Positions 43,721-50,030 of a DNA stretch of 64,000 nt are shown here, piece by piece. The stretch comes from Micromonospora costi (lineage in GTDB: Bacteria; Actinomycetota; Actinomycetes; Mycobacteriales; Micromonosporaceae). Under the pieces are notes generated by a model. It was not told the DNA's origin. It made no database searches and saw only the letters and a program-made list of their open reading frames with translations. A program made the position numbers and the translations under genes. Location: assembly GCF_003626655.1 (NCBI RefSeq), contig NZ_RBAN01000001.1, forward strand, positions 930,001-994,000, written 5' to 3'. The number at the start of each line of letters is the position of its first letter. Position 1 is the stretch's first letter.

Positions 43721-43967
43721 CCCTCGCGTCGTGGCCGCCCGGCGATAGTCGTGGCCGCCCGGCGACAGCGGAACCGGGCGGCGTCCGAGGCCGCCCGGCC
43801 GCGACGGTCGACCCACCGCCGCCCAGATACGGACGATTGGGTAATTCCTAACGCACCCCCCGGCGTCGCATGCTGCGGTTGGACGCTCACCGATCGTCAG
43901 CAGAGCCGGCCCGACCGGGTCGCCACGCCGGGGTGGCGGCGGTCGTGCCCCGACCCCGGGGAGAGCC
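43721..43967. other. Intergenic region with a 20-bp tandem repeat
   Basis: These 247 bases separate nei2 from the oxidase-like gene. Two tandem copies of GTCGTGGCCGCCCGGCGAYA start near 43728 and 43748. A less GC-rich TGGGTAATTCCTAA at 43839-43852 may be part of the promoter of the next gene. No coding sequence is evident. Confidence 0.5.
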
Positions 43968-46900
43968 ATGGCGATGTTCCGCAGACTCCGGACCACCTGG
44001 ACCGACCGCGTGGCGCGCGGCGGCAACGGCCGGGTCGCCGAGGCGGACCGGACGGCGGTCCCGACCGCCCGCACCGCCGAGGACGTGACCGCACCGGCGC
44101 CGGCCAGCCTCGATCCGGCCGCGGTCCCGCGATGTTTCGGCCCGGTGCCGAACTTCGCCCGCAGCCCGCTGCCGGTGTGCGACGCCGACGGGCGCGTGCA
44201 GCCCGGCACCGGCCTGCGCAAGTTCGTCGACCCGCTGCCCCGCCCCGGCCCACTGGGCCGCACCGAGCTGGGCGGGTACCTGCCGGTCGCCGTGCCGGAC
44301 ACCATCACCTACCCGGGCTGCGACTACTACGAGATCGGCCTGCAGCAGTACGCGCAACGGCTGCACCGGGACCTGCCGGCCACCCGGCTGCGGGGATACC
44401 GGCAGCTGAACCTCGGCACCGACCCGTCCGGGCACAACACCGTGGCGCCGCCCGGGCGGCCCTGGTACCTCGGCCCGCTGATCCGGGCCCGGCGCGGCCG
44501 TCCGGTGCGGGTCAAGTTCATCAACCAGCTCCCCACCGGCCGCGCCGGCGAACTCTTCCTGCCCGTCGACGAGACCGTCGAGGGCGCCGGCATCGGGCCC
44601 CTGGACGGGCCGGCGCCGTACCCGCAGAACCGGGCGGTGCTGCACCTCGCGGGCGCGCAGACCGGCTGGACCAGCGCCGGCAACCCCTGGCAGTGGATCA
44701 CGCCGGCCGGCGAGATCACCCCGTACCCGACCGGGGTGGGCCTCACCCACGTCCCGGACATGCCGCCGCCCGGAGTGGGCGCCACCACGCTCTACTACCC
44801 GAACGAGCAGAGCGGCCGGCTCCTCTGGATCCACGACAACACCCTCGGCCTGTCCCGGCTGACCGTCTACTCCGGGCAGCTCGCGCTGTACCTGCTCACC
44901 GACCCGGTCGAGGAGCAGCTCGTGGCCGACGGGGTGCTGCCCGAGGAGGAGCTCCCGCTGGTCGTCGAGGACAAGACGTTCGTGCCCGACGACACCCAGC
45001 TCGCCGGGGAGGATCCGACGTGGGACCGGGACCGGTGGGGCGCCCGCGGCAGCCTCTGGCACCCGCACGTCTACCAGCCCCGGCAGAACCCGTACCGCGG
45101 CGGCGGGACCAACCCGACCGGGCGCTGGGACTACGGGCCCTGGTCGCGTACGGCCGACGGGGGGCCCGACCTCGACGGCCGTCCGGCCGGCAGCGGCCCG
45201 AACGCGGCGCTCCCCCATCCCGGCCCCGGCCCGGTGCCGAACCCGCACCACGACCCGCTGGCCGCCGCCGAGGAACCGCCGCTGACCCCGGGCGTGCCGC
45301 ATCCGAGCGCGGTCCCCGAGGCGTTCGGCGACACCCCGCTGGTCAACGGGATCGCGTACCCGTACCTGGAGGTGCGGCCGCGCGCGTACCGGTTCCGGAT
45401 CCTCAACGCCTGCCCGGACCGCAGCCTCAACCTCCAGCTCTACCGTGCCTGCTCGGACGAGCCGATGTGGGACGACGAGGGCAACCTGCTCGAAGCCGAA
45501 GCCGGGGAGGTGCCGATGGTGCCCGCGGCGCGGGCCCCCGGCCGGCCGGCGGACTGGCCGGCCGACGGGCGCGACGGCGGCGTGCCCGACCCGCGCGCCG
45601 CCGGGCCGGAGCTGATCCAGATCGGCAACGACGGCGGGCTGCTGCCCGCGCCCGTGCTGATCCGCAGCCGCCCGGTCGGCTACCGGTACGACCGCCGGGA
45701 CCCGACCGTGCTCAACGTGGACGCGCACGCCCTGCTGCTCGCGCCCGGCGAGCGGGCCGACGTGGTGGTGGACTTCTCCTCGGTGCCGCCGGGAAGCACC
45801 CTGATCCTCTACAACGACTGCCCCGCACCGCTGCCCGGCTTCGACCCGCGCTACGACCACCACACCGACGCGCCGGACCGCACGGCCGAGGGCGGCGCAC
45901 CCCGCACCCGACCCGGGTACGGCCCGAACACCCGTACGCTCCTGCAGTTCCGGGTCCGGGGCACGCCGGCCGCGCCGTACGACGTGGCCCGCCTCCGCGA
46001 ACGGCTGCCCCTGGCGTACGCGGCCGGCCAGCGCCCGCCGATCGTCCCGCAGCCGGCGTACGACGCGGCGATCGGCACCCGCACGCCGGCCGAGACCGTG
46101 GTGCCGGTGCACGCCACGACCGTCACGTTCACACCGGCGGGTGGCGCCGTGCCGGTCACCGTGCCGATCGCCGTGAAGGCCGTCCAGCAGGTGTTCGAAC
46201 CCGCGTACGGCCGGCTGGCCGGCCGGCTCGGCGTCGCGCACCCGCACGCCGGGCCGCTCGCCCCCGCCACCCTACCGCTCGGGCCCACCGACCCGGCGAC
46301 CGAGATCCTGTTCGCGGCCGACCCCGCGGTGCCGATCGGTGCACCGGCCGACGGCACCCAGGTGTGGCGGATCGTGGGGAACAGCCGGCAGACGGAGGCC
46401 GTCCGCCTGGACGGGTGCGACCTCCAGGTGGTCAACCGGGTGGGCTGGGACGGCACCATCCGCCCGCCGGACGGCGGCGAACTGGGTTGGAAGGAGGTCG
46501 TCCGGGTCAATCCCCGCGAGGACGTGATCGTGGCGTTGCGCCCCGTCGCCCCGATCCTCCCGTTCAAGATCGGCGACAGTGTCCGCCTGCTCGACCCGAC
46601 CCGCCCGGCCGGCACCCGCACCGGCTCGACCCCGATCAGCCCGGTGGACGGGCGGCCCGCGCTCGTGGTGAACCAGCTCGTGAACCTCGGCTGGGAGTAC
46701 CGCTGGCACAGCCAGCTCGCCGGTCACCGCGACGTCGGGATGAGCCGGCCGCTGGTGCTGCGGGTCTCCCCCAAGGCGCCCACCGGGTTGACCGCCACCC
46801 CCGCGCCGGGATCGGCCACCGCCCTGCCGGCCATCACGCTCACCTGGACGGGCAACGGCGGCCGCCCGCCGGCCACCAGCCACCTGCTGCAACGCGCCAC

Positions 46901-47642
46901 CGACGCCGCCTTCACGGCCGGCCTCACGGCCATCACGGTGGCGGCCACCGCGACCCGGTACACCGACGCCACGGTCACACCCGGCGTCACGTACCACTAC
47001 CGCATCCGCGCCGAGAACGCGGTCAGCTGTTCGGCCTGGTCCAACAGCGTCCCGGCGTCGGTGCAGCTCAGCGCCCCGACCGGGCTGGCTGCCGCGATCC
47101 CGCCGGCGGCGCCGCTGCGCGTCGGGCTCCGCTGGTCGAACCGCTCGTTCGCGACCGGCATCGACGTGCAGCGGGCCACCAACCCCACGTTCACCAGCGG
47201 CCCGGGCACCACGGCGATCGGCGTCGGCGGCACCCACCTCGACCCGGCGGTCGCACCGGACACCACGTACTACTACCGGGTGCGCACCACCTACCTGGGC
47301 GCCGCCTCACCCTGGTCGACGGTCGCCACCGTGACCACCCCGCCCGCCCCGCTCACGCCGACGGGCGTGACCGTCACCGCCAGCGCCCCGGGCCCGGACA
47401 CCGCGACGGTGATCCTGGGCTGGTCGGCCGGACCGGCGGCCGGGCCGGGCGCCGGGTTCATCGTCCAGCGCGCCGTCGACGCGGCGTTCAGCCGGGAGGT
47501 CGCCACGTTCACCGTCACGGGCCGGGGCTTCACCAACAGCGGGCTGGCGCGCGGCGTCACGTACCACTACCGGATCCGCGCGTTCAACGTCGTGGGCAGC
47601 TCCGGTTTCACGGCGCCGGTGGCGGTCACCACCCCGCCGTGA
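43968..47642 (+). CDS. Multicopper oxidase-like protein with three FN3 domains and degenerate copper sites
   Basis: The 1,224-residue product aligns by eye with CotA/bilirubin-oxidase-type multicopper oxidases ([40 protein letters not shown]) over residues 90-930, followed by three fibronectin type III domains (about 936-1034, 1035-1129, 1130-1224). The four copper motifs are altered: the first HxH reads HLA (226-228), the second HDN (289-291), HPxHxH reads LPFKIG (864-869), and HCH reads HSQ (914-916), so the type 1 cysteine is a serine. M925 is kept. Electron-transfer chemistry is therefore unlikely. There is no signal peptide. ATG 43968 follows GGGGAG. Confidence 0.85.
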   Translation: MAMFRRLRTTWTDRVARGGNGRVAEADRTAVPTARTAEDVTAPAPASLDPAAVPRCFGPVPNFARSPLPVCDADGRVQPGTGLRKFVDPLPRPGPLGRTELGGYLPVAVPDTITYPGCDYYEIGLQQYAQRLHRDLPATRLRGYRQLNLGTDPSGHNTVAPPGRPWYLGPLIRARRGRPVRVKFINQLPTGRAGELFLPVDETVEGAGIGPLDGPAPYPQNRAVLHLAGAQTGWTSAGNPWQWITPAGEITPYPTGVGLTHVPDMPPPGVGATTLYYPNEQSGRLLWIHDNTLGLSRLTVYSGQLALYLLTDPVEEQLVADGVLPEEELPLVVEDKTFVPDDTQLAGEDPTWDRDRWGARGSLWHPHVYQPRQNPYRGGGTNPTGRWDYGPWSRTADGGPDLDGRPAGSGPNAALPHPGPGPVPNPHHDPLAAAEEPPLTPGVPHPSAVPEAFGDTPLVNGIAYPYLEVRPRAYRFRILNACPDRSLNLQLYRACSDEPMWDDEGNLLEAEAGEVPMVPAARAPGRPADWPADGRDGGVPDPRAAGPELIQIGNDGGLLPAPVLIRSRPVGYRYDRRDPTVLNVDAHALLLAPGERADVVVDFSSVPPGSTLILYNDCPAPLPGFDPRYDHHTDAPDRTAEGGAPRTRPGYGPNTRTLLQFRVRGTPAAPYDVARLRERLPLAYAAGQRPPIVPQPAYDAAIGTRTPAETVVPVHATTVTFTPAGGAVPVTVPIAVKAVQQVFEPAYGRLAGRLGVAHPHAGPLAPATLPLGPTDPATEILFAADPAVPIGAPADGTQVWRIVGNSRQTEAVRLDGCDLQVVNRVGWDGTIRPPDGGELGWKEVVRVNPREDVIVALRPVAPILPFKIGDSVRLLDPTRPAGTRTGSTPISPVDGRPALVVNQLVNLGWEYRWHSQLAGHRDVGMSRPLVLRVSPKAPTGLTATPAPGSATALPAITLTWTGNGGRPPATSHLLQRATDAAFTAGLTAITVAATATRYTDATVTPGVTYHYRIRAENAVSCSAWSNSVPASVQLSAPTGLAAAIPPAAPLRVGLRWSNRSFATGIDVQRATNPTFTSGPGTTAIGVGGTHLDPAVAPDTTYYYRVRTTYLGAASPWSTVATVTTPPAPLTPTGVTVTASAPGPDTATVILGWSAGPAAGPGAGFIVQRAVDAAFSREVATFTVTGRGFTNSGLARGVTYHYRIRAFNVVGSSGFTAPVAVTTPP

Positions 47643-47684: not shown

Positions 47685-48473
47685 TCAGCGGGTCGGGGCG
47701 CGCAGCGGGTCGCCGACGCCGCGCAACTCGGCCAGCGCCGCGGCGACGCCGTGCAGCAGGTCGGTCGCCTCGGTCAGCCGGGACGCGGCCGGGTCGGCGC
47801 CGCCGCCGGGCCGCGCGTCCTCGGCGACGTACCCCGCCGCGGCCACCACCAGCCGCTCGTACGCGGCGACACCGCTCTCCAACTGCTCGGTGAGCACCCG
47901 GTGGGTGTCCGCCAGCGGCGCGCGGGCCTCCGCCGGGGCGAGCCGCATCGCGCGTTCCACGCTCGCCACCCGATGGGCGAGGTCCCGCAGCGACCGGTCC
48001 GCGTCCGTGGCCTCCTGCACGGCCGGTCCGGCCAGCCCGGTGAGCCGCTGCGTCATCCCGGCGAGGGTCAGCGAGGCCCGGTCCAGCCGGGCCCACGGCT
48101 CGGCCGCGCTGGTGCCGCGCAACGCCACCCGGGAGCGGACCCGGCGCACCTCGGCCAGCACACCCGGGCCGGCGGGCAGCCGTTCGACGGCGGCCACGAG
48201 CCGCGCCCGGGACCGCGCGGCGGCCTCGGCCGGGTCCGGCGCCGGTGGGGCGGGCCGCGCGGCCAGCGCCCGCAGGTCGACCCAGCGCCAGGCGGCGAGC
48301 GCCAGGGCGCTGCCCGCAGCGCCGGCCCAGGCCGCGTCGGGCAGACCGAGCCCGGCGTACGGGGTCAGGACGGCAGCCGCACCGCCGAGCCCACCGGCCA
48401 GCACACTCCACCGTCGGGCGGACCGGCGCAGCCGGGCCAGGCTCCGGAAGTACCGCGTACGCTCGTCTGCCAC
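47685..48473 (-). CDS. pspM: Phage shock envelope stress response protein PspM
   Basis: The 262-residue product has two hydrophobic segments (about residues 25-43 and 48-62) followed by a long helical cytoplasmic part rich in Ala/Arg/Glu. Its position after pspA, in the order clgR-pspA-pspM, and this layout match the actinobacterial PspM partner of the envelope-stress system; the sequence itself is poorly conserved. The GTG at 48473 has an excellent GAGGAGG upstream; a TTG at 48500 overlapping the pspA stop is less likely. Confidence 0.75.
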   Translation of the reverse strand: MADERTRYFRSLARLRRSARRWSVLAGGLGGAAAVLTPYAGLGLPDAAWAGAAGSALALAAWRWVDLRALAARPAPPAPDPAEAAARSRARLVAAVERLPAGPGVLAEVRRVRSRVALRGTSAAEPWARLDRASLTLAGMTQRLTGLAGPAVQEATDADRSLRDLAHRVASVERAMRLAPAEARAPLADTHRVLTEQLESGVAAYERLVVAAAGYVAEDARPGGGADPAASRLTEATDLLHGVAAALAELRGVGDPLRAPTR

Positions 48474-48496
48474 CCTGACCTCCTCGTGCCGGCCGC

Positions 48497-49378
48497 TCAA
48501 CCGGCGGCGGTGGTGTCCCCGGTGCCCCGCTCACGGGCCATGGTCGCCCGGATCTGGTCGAGCCGGGCCGCGGCGGCCGGGTCGGCGGCCGCCGGTTTCG
48601 GCTGCTCGGCAGCCTGCCGCTGCTCCACGCCCTGCCGCTGCTGGGCGCCGAGCTGCTCGCCGGCCATGCTGGACCGGATCTGCTCCAGCCGGGCCGCGCC
48701 GGCCGAGTCGAGCGTCGCCTTCTGGATCTCCAGCATGCGTCCCTCGGTGGAGTTACCGGCCAGTTCGGCACGACCCATCGCGTTGGCGTAGCGGCGCTCG
48801 ATCCGGTCGCGCACCTCGTCCAGCGAGGGGGTGGTGCCGGGGGCGGTCAGCTGCGACATCGACTCCAGCGAGCGGGCCACGCTCTCCTGCATCTTGGCCT
48901 GCTCCAGCTGGCTCAGCAGCCGGGTGCGCTCGGCGAGCCGCTGCTGGAGGATCATCGAGTTGTTCTCCACGGCCTTGCGGGCCTGCGCGGCGGCACCGAG
49001 CGCCTGGTCGTGCAGGGTCTTCAGGTCCTCGGCGCCCTGCTCGGCGGAGACCAGCTGGGTGGCCAGGGTCTGGGCGGTCTGCTCGTACCGGCCGGCCTCG
49101 GCCTCGTCACCCCGGGCCCGGGCCTGGTCGGCCAGGACCAGCGCCTGCCGGGCGTTGCCCTGGAGGCGCTCCACCTCCGACATCTGCCGGGACAGCTTCA
49201 TCTCCAGCTGCCGCTGGTTGCCGATCACCGCGGCGGCCTGCTGCACGAGCTGCTGGTGCTGGCGCTGCGCCTCCTCGATGGCCTGCTGGATCTGGACCTT
49301 GGGATCGGCGCGCTCGTCGATCCGGGCGCCGAAGAGCGCCATCAGGTACTTCCACCCCTTGACGAACGGGTTCGCCAT
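48497..49378 (-). CDS. pspA: Phage shock protein A (PspA/IM30 family)
   Basis: PspA binds stressed membranes and, in actinobacteria, also binds and inhibits ClgR. The 293-residue product is a long helical coiled coil (about residues 25-220) beginning [20 protein letters not shown], with an N-terminal amphipathic helix. It is longer than the usual 220-250 residues because of a C-terminal extension in which a 15-residue unit occurs twice: [14 protein letters not shown] and [14 protein letters not shown], separated by a Gln-rich linker. ATG at 49378. Confidence 0.93.
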
Positions 49379-49574
49379 CTCCGCGGTATCCCCTCAGTCG
49401 CGTCGCTCCGCCTGCGCGTGCCGGACGGGTCGACGGGCCACCGGCGCGGCAGCCTCTCCATCGTCCCAGCCGGGCGCCAGACCGGCACCCTTACCGGATG
49501 AGTGGAGGGCCGACACCGTACGCGATCAAGCGTACGCGCGCCGGGCGAGGGAGGCCACGGAGCGGAAGCGGAGG

Positions 49575-50030
49575 TCAGGCCGCGCAGACCACGTCGCGGT
49601 CACGCTCGGCCGAGCGGACACGCGTGCTGCGCAGGGTGGCCTTGAGCGGCGAATCCTGGCGGACCGACACGGCGACCGTGCCGTCGGAGCTGACCTGGCG
49701 TACGGCCCGGTTGGTGGCCTTGGCGGCGGGCGCCGCGGGCACGGTGGCCGGCTCCGCCGGCTCGTCCTGCACCGGGACCAGCACGTTCGGCATCTGCTCG
49801 GCGAGCGCCACGGTGTCGCTCACCTCGCGCAGCAGCTCGGAGAGACGCGCGCCGAGCGCGTCGCAGATCGCGGCCAACAGCTCGCTGGAGGGCTCCTTCT
49901 GGCCGCGCTCGATCTCGGACAGGTAGCCGAGGCTCACGTTGGCCGCGGAGGAGACCTCGCGCAGGGTGCGGTGCTGCCCCTGCCGGCGCGCCCGTAGTGC
50001 GTCACCGATCACTCGGCGTAGCAGGACCAT
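49575..50030 (-). CDS. clgR: Transcriptional regulator ClgR
   Basis: ClgR is an Xre-type activator of clp protease and psp genes. The 151-residue product has a helix-turn-helix at residues 10-65 ([40 protein letters not shown]). The C-terminus is VVCAA, a hydrophobic-Ala-Ala type ending that fits the known degradation of ClgR by ClpP in related bacteria. It precedes pspA by 196 bases on the same strand. The ATG at 50030 starts the conserved [13 protein letters not shown]. Confidence 0.92.

Follow-up and report, generated by a model that had tools for sequence, protein, structure and literature searches.

We analyzed a 64,000-nucleotide stretch of the Micromonospora costi genome (the window; contig NZ_RBAN01000001.1, positions 930,001 to 994,000), in which the forward-strand gene at 43968-47642 encodes a 1224-aa protein of the CotA-type multicopper oxidase (MCO) superfamily with no complete copper site and with three C-terminal FN3 domains. 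The reading frame is open over its whole length, as the first-pass annotation of the window had stated. Its ATG start is preceded by the stretch GGGGAGAG, and the GC content by codon position is 0.73/0.58/0.96. The nearest named relatives of the protein belong to Micromonospora species, and among open-licence papers we recognized none that deals with it.

Homology to the CotA-type MCOs was clear at the sequence level. The best match among solved structures was the CotA laccase 4a66 (E = 1.6e-33), and a profile built from 70 rows, Plantactinospora-type copies (described below) included, placed CotA laccases at the top (2.5e-48). Significant stretches covered residues 118-342 and 435-493, with weak ones extending to about residue 930. 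The CotA-like scaffold of the first-pass annotation therefore holds as homology, although the MCO body, at about 840 aa, is longer than the 513 aa of CotA. Pfam MCO models were nearly blind to the protein (Cu-oxidase_3, E = 0.085, under the cut-off), and the NCBIfam models for PhsA, CueO, and FtsP matched far under their cut-offs. PhsA (NF045554) was the best of these at 2.3e-21, with 76 bits against an equivalog cut-off of 950, while the FtsP/SufI model NF008135 reached 35.3 bits against 581.

Functional four-copper MCOs use ten His and one Cys in four motifs, and the M. costi copy retains only 4/11 of these ligands (H226, H289, H914, and H920) and no complete copper site. The CotA motifs HLHGG, WYHDH, THPIHLH, and WHCHILEHEDYDMM align with HLAGA (226-230), IHDNT (288-292), TEAVRLD (809-815), and WHSQLAGHRDVGM (913-925), respectively. 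We take the corresponding CotA ligands to be H105, H107, H153, H155, H419, H422, and H424. In HLA (residues 226-228; 44643-44651, forward strand, as are all motifs here) the type 2 His (H105) is kept and the type 3 His (H107) is lost, and in HDN (289-291; 44832-44840) one type 3 His (H153) is kept and the other (H155) is Asn. The third motif, TEAVRLD (46392-46412), was placed against TH..HFH by alignment to CotA and to copper-intact relatives; it is the true HPxHxH equivalent, with E810, R813, and D815 in place of H419, H422, and H424. In HSQLAGHRDVGM (914-925; 46707-46742) HCH has become HSQ, so that Ser915 replaces the type 1 Cys, while H920 and M925 remain.

The first-pass annotation had located HLA, HDN, HSQ, and Ser915 correctly and had taken LPFKIG (864-869; 46557-46574) for the remaining motif. 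We rejected LPFKIG as a lost copper motif because copper-intact relatives carry the same or a similar segment, which marks it as conserved scaffold. Since TEAVRLD has lost its ligands too, the conclusion that copper was lost stands. Intact HxH or HCH motifs elsewhere in the protein had been named beforehand as the observation to look for against that conclusion. HCH does not occur in the 1224 residues and the sole HxH is HPH, at 365 and 758, which matches no ligand column, so displaced motifs were rejected. MCO electron transfer and O2 reduction are impossible without the type 1 and type 3 coppers. With its catalytic copper sites gone, the protein, judged from its sequence, is unable to work as a laccase or metal oxidase through the established mechanism.

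The loss is shared across orthologues. We took the best 80 of 127 GTDB loci, counted four Plantactinospora-type copies separately, and set aside seven truncated or odd-ended loci (L063, L065, L081, L083, L088, L096, and L100), which left a set of 70 (the M. costi copy plus 69 loci). The seven sit within a larger 96-row alignment in which some genomes appear twice, from two collections. Each of the 70 orthologues keeps 1-6 of the 11 ligands, and the maximum across the 96 rows is also 6. None of the 70 has a complete type 1, T3a, or T3b site, the last two being the type 3 sites. Cys is absent at 915 in all 70 and in all 93 readable rows of the 96, no orthologue has His at 228, and the position of CotA H155 is Asn in 69/70 and His in one.

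Retention of the gene is genus-wide. A search of 61 genomes found a match in 44, including 37/37 of the genus, with broken pieces in two of the 37 (G014 and G029), a copy split across two contigs in G016, and a contig-edge fragment in G005. With L113, a copper-intact paralogue from the genus, as query, 159/160 genus genomes had a match, a count of match presence with ligands read in named rows; the exception was again G005 with its fragment. Matches were rarer in wider samples: 25/200 genomes of the order (23 of them in the genus), 19/296 of the phylum, and 6/246 of the class, the last with a query and threshold different from those of the phylum sample and with one genome (G143) left out of examination. 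Six genomes of other genera in the family (G334, G340, G366, G378, G410, and G422) had no match at E 1e-30, and the gene is therefore not family-wide.

Copper-type relatives kept their sites. All 28 full copper-type relatives (nine from the genus, four from class genomes elsewhere, and 15 from the rest of the phylum) retain 11/11 ligands. The half gene L154, in which 4/11 ligands are readable and present, was omitted from these rows and from the tree, and 15 of the 17 phylum matches outside the genus were read (G731 and G819 were left out). Copies at least 74% identical to L113 occur in 10/160 genus genomes among the matches listed: L113 itself in G035, further copies in G533, G320, G518, G404, G487, G457, G328, and G459, and a half gene in G517. 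M. costi has no such copper-intact sister paralogue. Its genome does contain three further MCO-type genes (L171, L172, and L173) with HxH and HCH motifs intact, so copper use has not been lost overall and an organism-wide loss is ruled out.

Half-broken orthologues occupy the same chromosomal place as the copper-less gene. These Plantactinospora-type copies, from three Plantactinospora and Micromonospora sp. HM5-17 (L084, L085, L087, and L095), keep 8, 8, 8, and 10 of the 11 ligands. WHCH has become WHCQ in all four, and the type 1 site is complete in two, which makes it possible, from sequence, that the half-broken forms are one-copper proteins. Q is also the commonest replacement of the second His of HCH in the copper-less set (33/70). 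Its presence in both groups suggests that HCH to HCQ was the first ligand loss.

On a 56-row tree, made by a quick method with the ligand columns retained in the alignment, copper-type, Plantactinospora-type, and copper-less rows each fell on one side of a branch, with two changes, the minimum possible. The tree requires a single loss of copper. The 28 copper-less and Plantactinospora-type rows form one clade (Shimodaira-Hasegawa-like approximate likelihood ratio test, SH-aLRT, 99), whose sister group is the nine copper-type paralogues from the genus. Together these 37 rows make up a clade with an SH-aLRT of 100, which places the protein within a clade of FN3-bearing giant actinobacterial MCOs. 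Conservation across 24 copper-type proteins marked 279 positions; of these, 9/11 ligands were changed in the copper-less set vs 46/268 of the others (Fisher p = 1.0e-5), and ligand columns changed 5.5 times on average on the tree vs 1.7 for other columns (5/56 tips were without a row in this count). The ratio of nonsynonymous to synonymous substitution rates (dN/dS) among copper-less orthologues had a median of 0.198 and a range of 0.121-0.274 over 21 pairs, indicating purifying selection. The copper-type paralogues had a median of 0.32 (36 pairs, more diverged and mutually dependent). The ligands were thus released while the body was held, which argues for a new role and against decay.

The tail comprises three FN3 domains (about residues 934-1033, 1034-1126, and 1127-1224, with borders set by eye; 46767-47639, forward strand), in agreement with the first-pass annotation. 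Pfam fn3 matched two stretches (35 bits vs 25), neogenin FN3 was matched by sequence and the FN3 of LAR (6tpv) by structure, and AlphaFold2 gave FN3-like beta domains over residues ~930-1224 with a predicted local distance difference test (pLDDT) score mostly about 80-90. For the third domain the evidence is length, pattern, and the model. The tail had been offered as an explanation of the new role, an idea that fails because the copper-intact L113 has a homologous tail. A low-confidence model of the protein matched CotA-type laccase structures with a Z of 16.2 over 401 residues (model residues 48-896) and SufI with 15.3 over 368. Overall, the structural matches were CotA, other laccases, CueO, and SufI (Z 14.7-16.2 over 367-436 residues; best Foldseek value 4.7e-22).

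We found no hydrophobic leader or Tat signal in the first 80 residues, where the 15-residue Kyte-Doolittle maximum is 0.65. Leader calls were made from this hydropathy, with copper-type starts picked by eye. The maximum spans -0.25 to 1.04 in 69 orthologues vs 2.29-3.37 in 13 leader-bearing relatives, all distant copper-type proteins; L160, another copper-type relative, has none. The first-pass annotation was right that a signal peptide is missing. It is not an oddity of the copper-less protein, as the nine copper-intact genus paralogues lack one as well; the leaderless state is therefore not tied to copper loss, and a leader was probably already missing when copper was lost. The copper-type relatives L156-L170 from other Actinomycetota (e.g., L159, L163, and L165) mostly have a leader and long N-terminal additions, several with FYFAEGTCRPNFDPYISIQNPG-type repeats. 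An N-terminal MxxFRR motif (43968-44000 in the window; L021-L100) is present in 67/80 loci and absent from the copper-type paralogues shown. MxxFRRLR was unconvincing as an amphipathic anchor, since 7% of the protein's 11-mers reach an equal or higher hydrophobic moment.

The chromosomal place of the gene is conserved. Of 80 loci, 77 have fpg upstream, 74 of them at a distance of no more than 1500 bases, and 71 have an Rv2743c-family gene, a PspA gene, or both downstream; the remaining nine have <700 bases after the gene. Three of the four Plantactinospora-type copies have both neighbors and L095 has the downstream ones, while none of 29 copper-type loci has fpg, Rv2743c-family, or PspA neighbors. 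In the window, the reverse-strand genes at 47685-50030 are a convergent Rv2743c-family (PspM-like) gene, a PspA/IM30 gene, and a helix-turn-helix gene, ClgR-like by its position as in mycobacteria; envelope-stress genes are thus conserved beside the copper-less gene. We inferred no function from the neighbors, since the psp genes run convergent to the copper-less gene and fpg shows no obvious connection with it. Across 81 aligned upstream regions there is a conserved block at about 43825-43900 on the forward strand (AGA..GGACGA.TGGGTA.TTCC ... GTCGCATGCTGCGGT.GA..GCTCAC), a candidate promoter or regulatory region. It is strongly conserved and includes GGGTA.TTCC and GTCGCATGCTGCGGT, its first half was unmatched in the three Plantactinospora-type regions shown, and neither a known sigma consensus nor a regulator was assigned to it.

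We favor, at a probability of roughly 0.7, the reading that the gene encodes a copper-free giant CotA-type pseudo-oxidase with an FN3 tail, retained to serve as a binding or scaffold protein, on the model of FtsP/SufI and MCORP. The first-pass annotation had likewise proposed a protein that lost copper and was kept for another role, and the genus-wide loss, purifying selection, conserved neighbors, and upstream block support it well. The scaffold or binding role itself is suggested by analogy. In the proposed course, a copper-using copy would have settled between the fpg and psp genes in the ancestor of Micromonospora, Salinispora, and Plantactinospora. The first ligand lost may have been a type 3 His, by the change of HCH to HCQ that the four Plantactinospora-type copies show; the type 1 Cys and the remaining ligands would have followed, while the folded protein would have been retained for a new non-redox role. 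It would act through binding, either as a scaffold or as a holder of ligands, in the cytoplasm or in the hyphal or spore envelope, comparable to FtsP/SufI; the three-cupredoxin body would serve as the platform and the FN3 tail would make the contacts.

Several observations weigh against this reading. The type 2 His pair is complete in 33/70 orthologues, H226 is retained in 67/70 and H289 in 66/70, and a single metal ion may be held in some species. The two C-terminal motifs align to CotA weakly on their own (i-Evalues above 1), the alignment being bridged by the copper-type relative L113. The 21 pairs behind the dN/dS median of 0.198 are not independent, and constraint is slight over the N-terminal 45 residues in 2/4 pairs (dN/dS of 0.79 and 0.97). 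Both AlphaFold2 models of the MCO body are also poor (mean pLDDT 56.2 over residues 40-1224 and 49.5 over 70-935), and the copper pockets are beyond inspection because the MCO models are of low confidence.

The retained His underlie the alternative that survives best, a residual metalloprotein in which H226 and H289, with H813, H914, and H920 in some species, hold one metal, be it for a reaction other than that of a laccase, for a structural purpose, or for storage. M925, kept in 61/70 orthologues, fits this idea together with the His counts above, and the available text of PMC4203857 describes the type 2 pair as retained in MCORP and SKU5 too. R813 of the M. costi protein nevertheless breaks that pair, and the tree shows 5, 8, and 7 changes at columns 813, 914, and 920, respectively. 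Recombinant MCORP held ~1 Cu per 17 molecules and had no oxidase activity (PMC4203857, available text), and FtsP keeps two His of different coppers, yet its structure showed no metal (PMC2661564, available text). We consider a residual metal site unlikely.

Decay of a no-longer-needed oxidase toward a pseudogene would account for the lineage-specific drift at the HCH position (HSQ, QTR, SSA, and GSA) and for broken copies in a few draft assemblies. The G014 and G029 copies, however, come from fragmented draft assemblies and could reflect sequencing errors, a match is present in 159/160 genomes, the upstream block is conserved, and dN/dS is 0.12-0.27 vs the 0.32 median of the more diverged copper-type pairs. 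We rejected a pseudogene on dN/dS and retention, and ongoing decay is very improbable. Least plausible of all is a pseudoenzyme that partners an active MCO, by forming a complex with it or by shielding it: the genus has a copper-intact sister paralogue and M. costi has three other MCO-type genes, yet among the matches listed the paralogue is found in so few genomes (and not in M. costi), whereas nearly every genome has the copper-less copy.

A broader and less probable version of the favored scaffold or binding reading can be put forward tentatively. The gene would be a genus core gene in which a laccase became a non-redox protein at one fixed place with living intermediates. The two Plantactinospora-type copies with a complete type 1 site would be one-copper electron-transfer proteins, and the Micromonospora form would serve inside the cell, or in the spore or envelope, as a scaffold linked to development or to the PspA envelope-stress genes next to it. 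For genome annotation, labeling the copper-less gene as a 'multicopper oxidase' or 'laccase' in Micromonospora would mislead.

By sequence and fold, the nearest solved relatives of the copper-less protein are the Bacillus spore-coat laccase CotA and the bilirubin-oxidase-like MCOs. The motif order is the same as in CotA, as seen via the copper-type relative, and CotA presumably also lacks a signal peptide. CotA differs in having all its ligands in 513 residues, whereas the copper-less protein has 4/11, large insertions, and three FN3 domains. PhsA (phenoxazinone synthase, O-aminophenol oxidase), the actinobacterial MCO behind the best NCBIfam model, has intact ligands and is not known to carry an FN3 tail. 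FtsP is Tat-exported, about 450 residues long, and not known to have FN3 domains, in contrast to the leaderless 1224-aa protein. Copper was probably lost independently of FtsP/SufI, because the copper-less protein is nearer in sequence to CotA than to E. coli SufI (E = 1.6e-33 vs 3.9e-07). FtsP is the bacterial precedent for a copper-free MCO fold, with two trinuclear-site His kept and a scaffold role proposed (PMC2661564, available text). Insect MCORP and plant SKU5 are likewise MCO relatives without most ligands and with essential or developmental roles; MCORP had undetectable oxidase activity and is called essential for insect viability in the title of the paper (PMC4203857, available text). 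Both are eukaryotic and keep the type 2 pair that is broken in the M. costi copy, and FN3 domains go unmentioned for them in the available text of PMC4203857. Copper-free MCO relatives were thus already known in FtsP, MCORP, and SKU5. Here much of the path is visible, from intact relatives through half-broken orthologues at the same locus to the fully copper-less form, which a whole genus of antibiotic producers retains. With these stages available, the change from enzyme to non-enzyme can be tested protein by protein.

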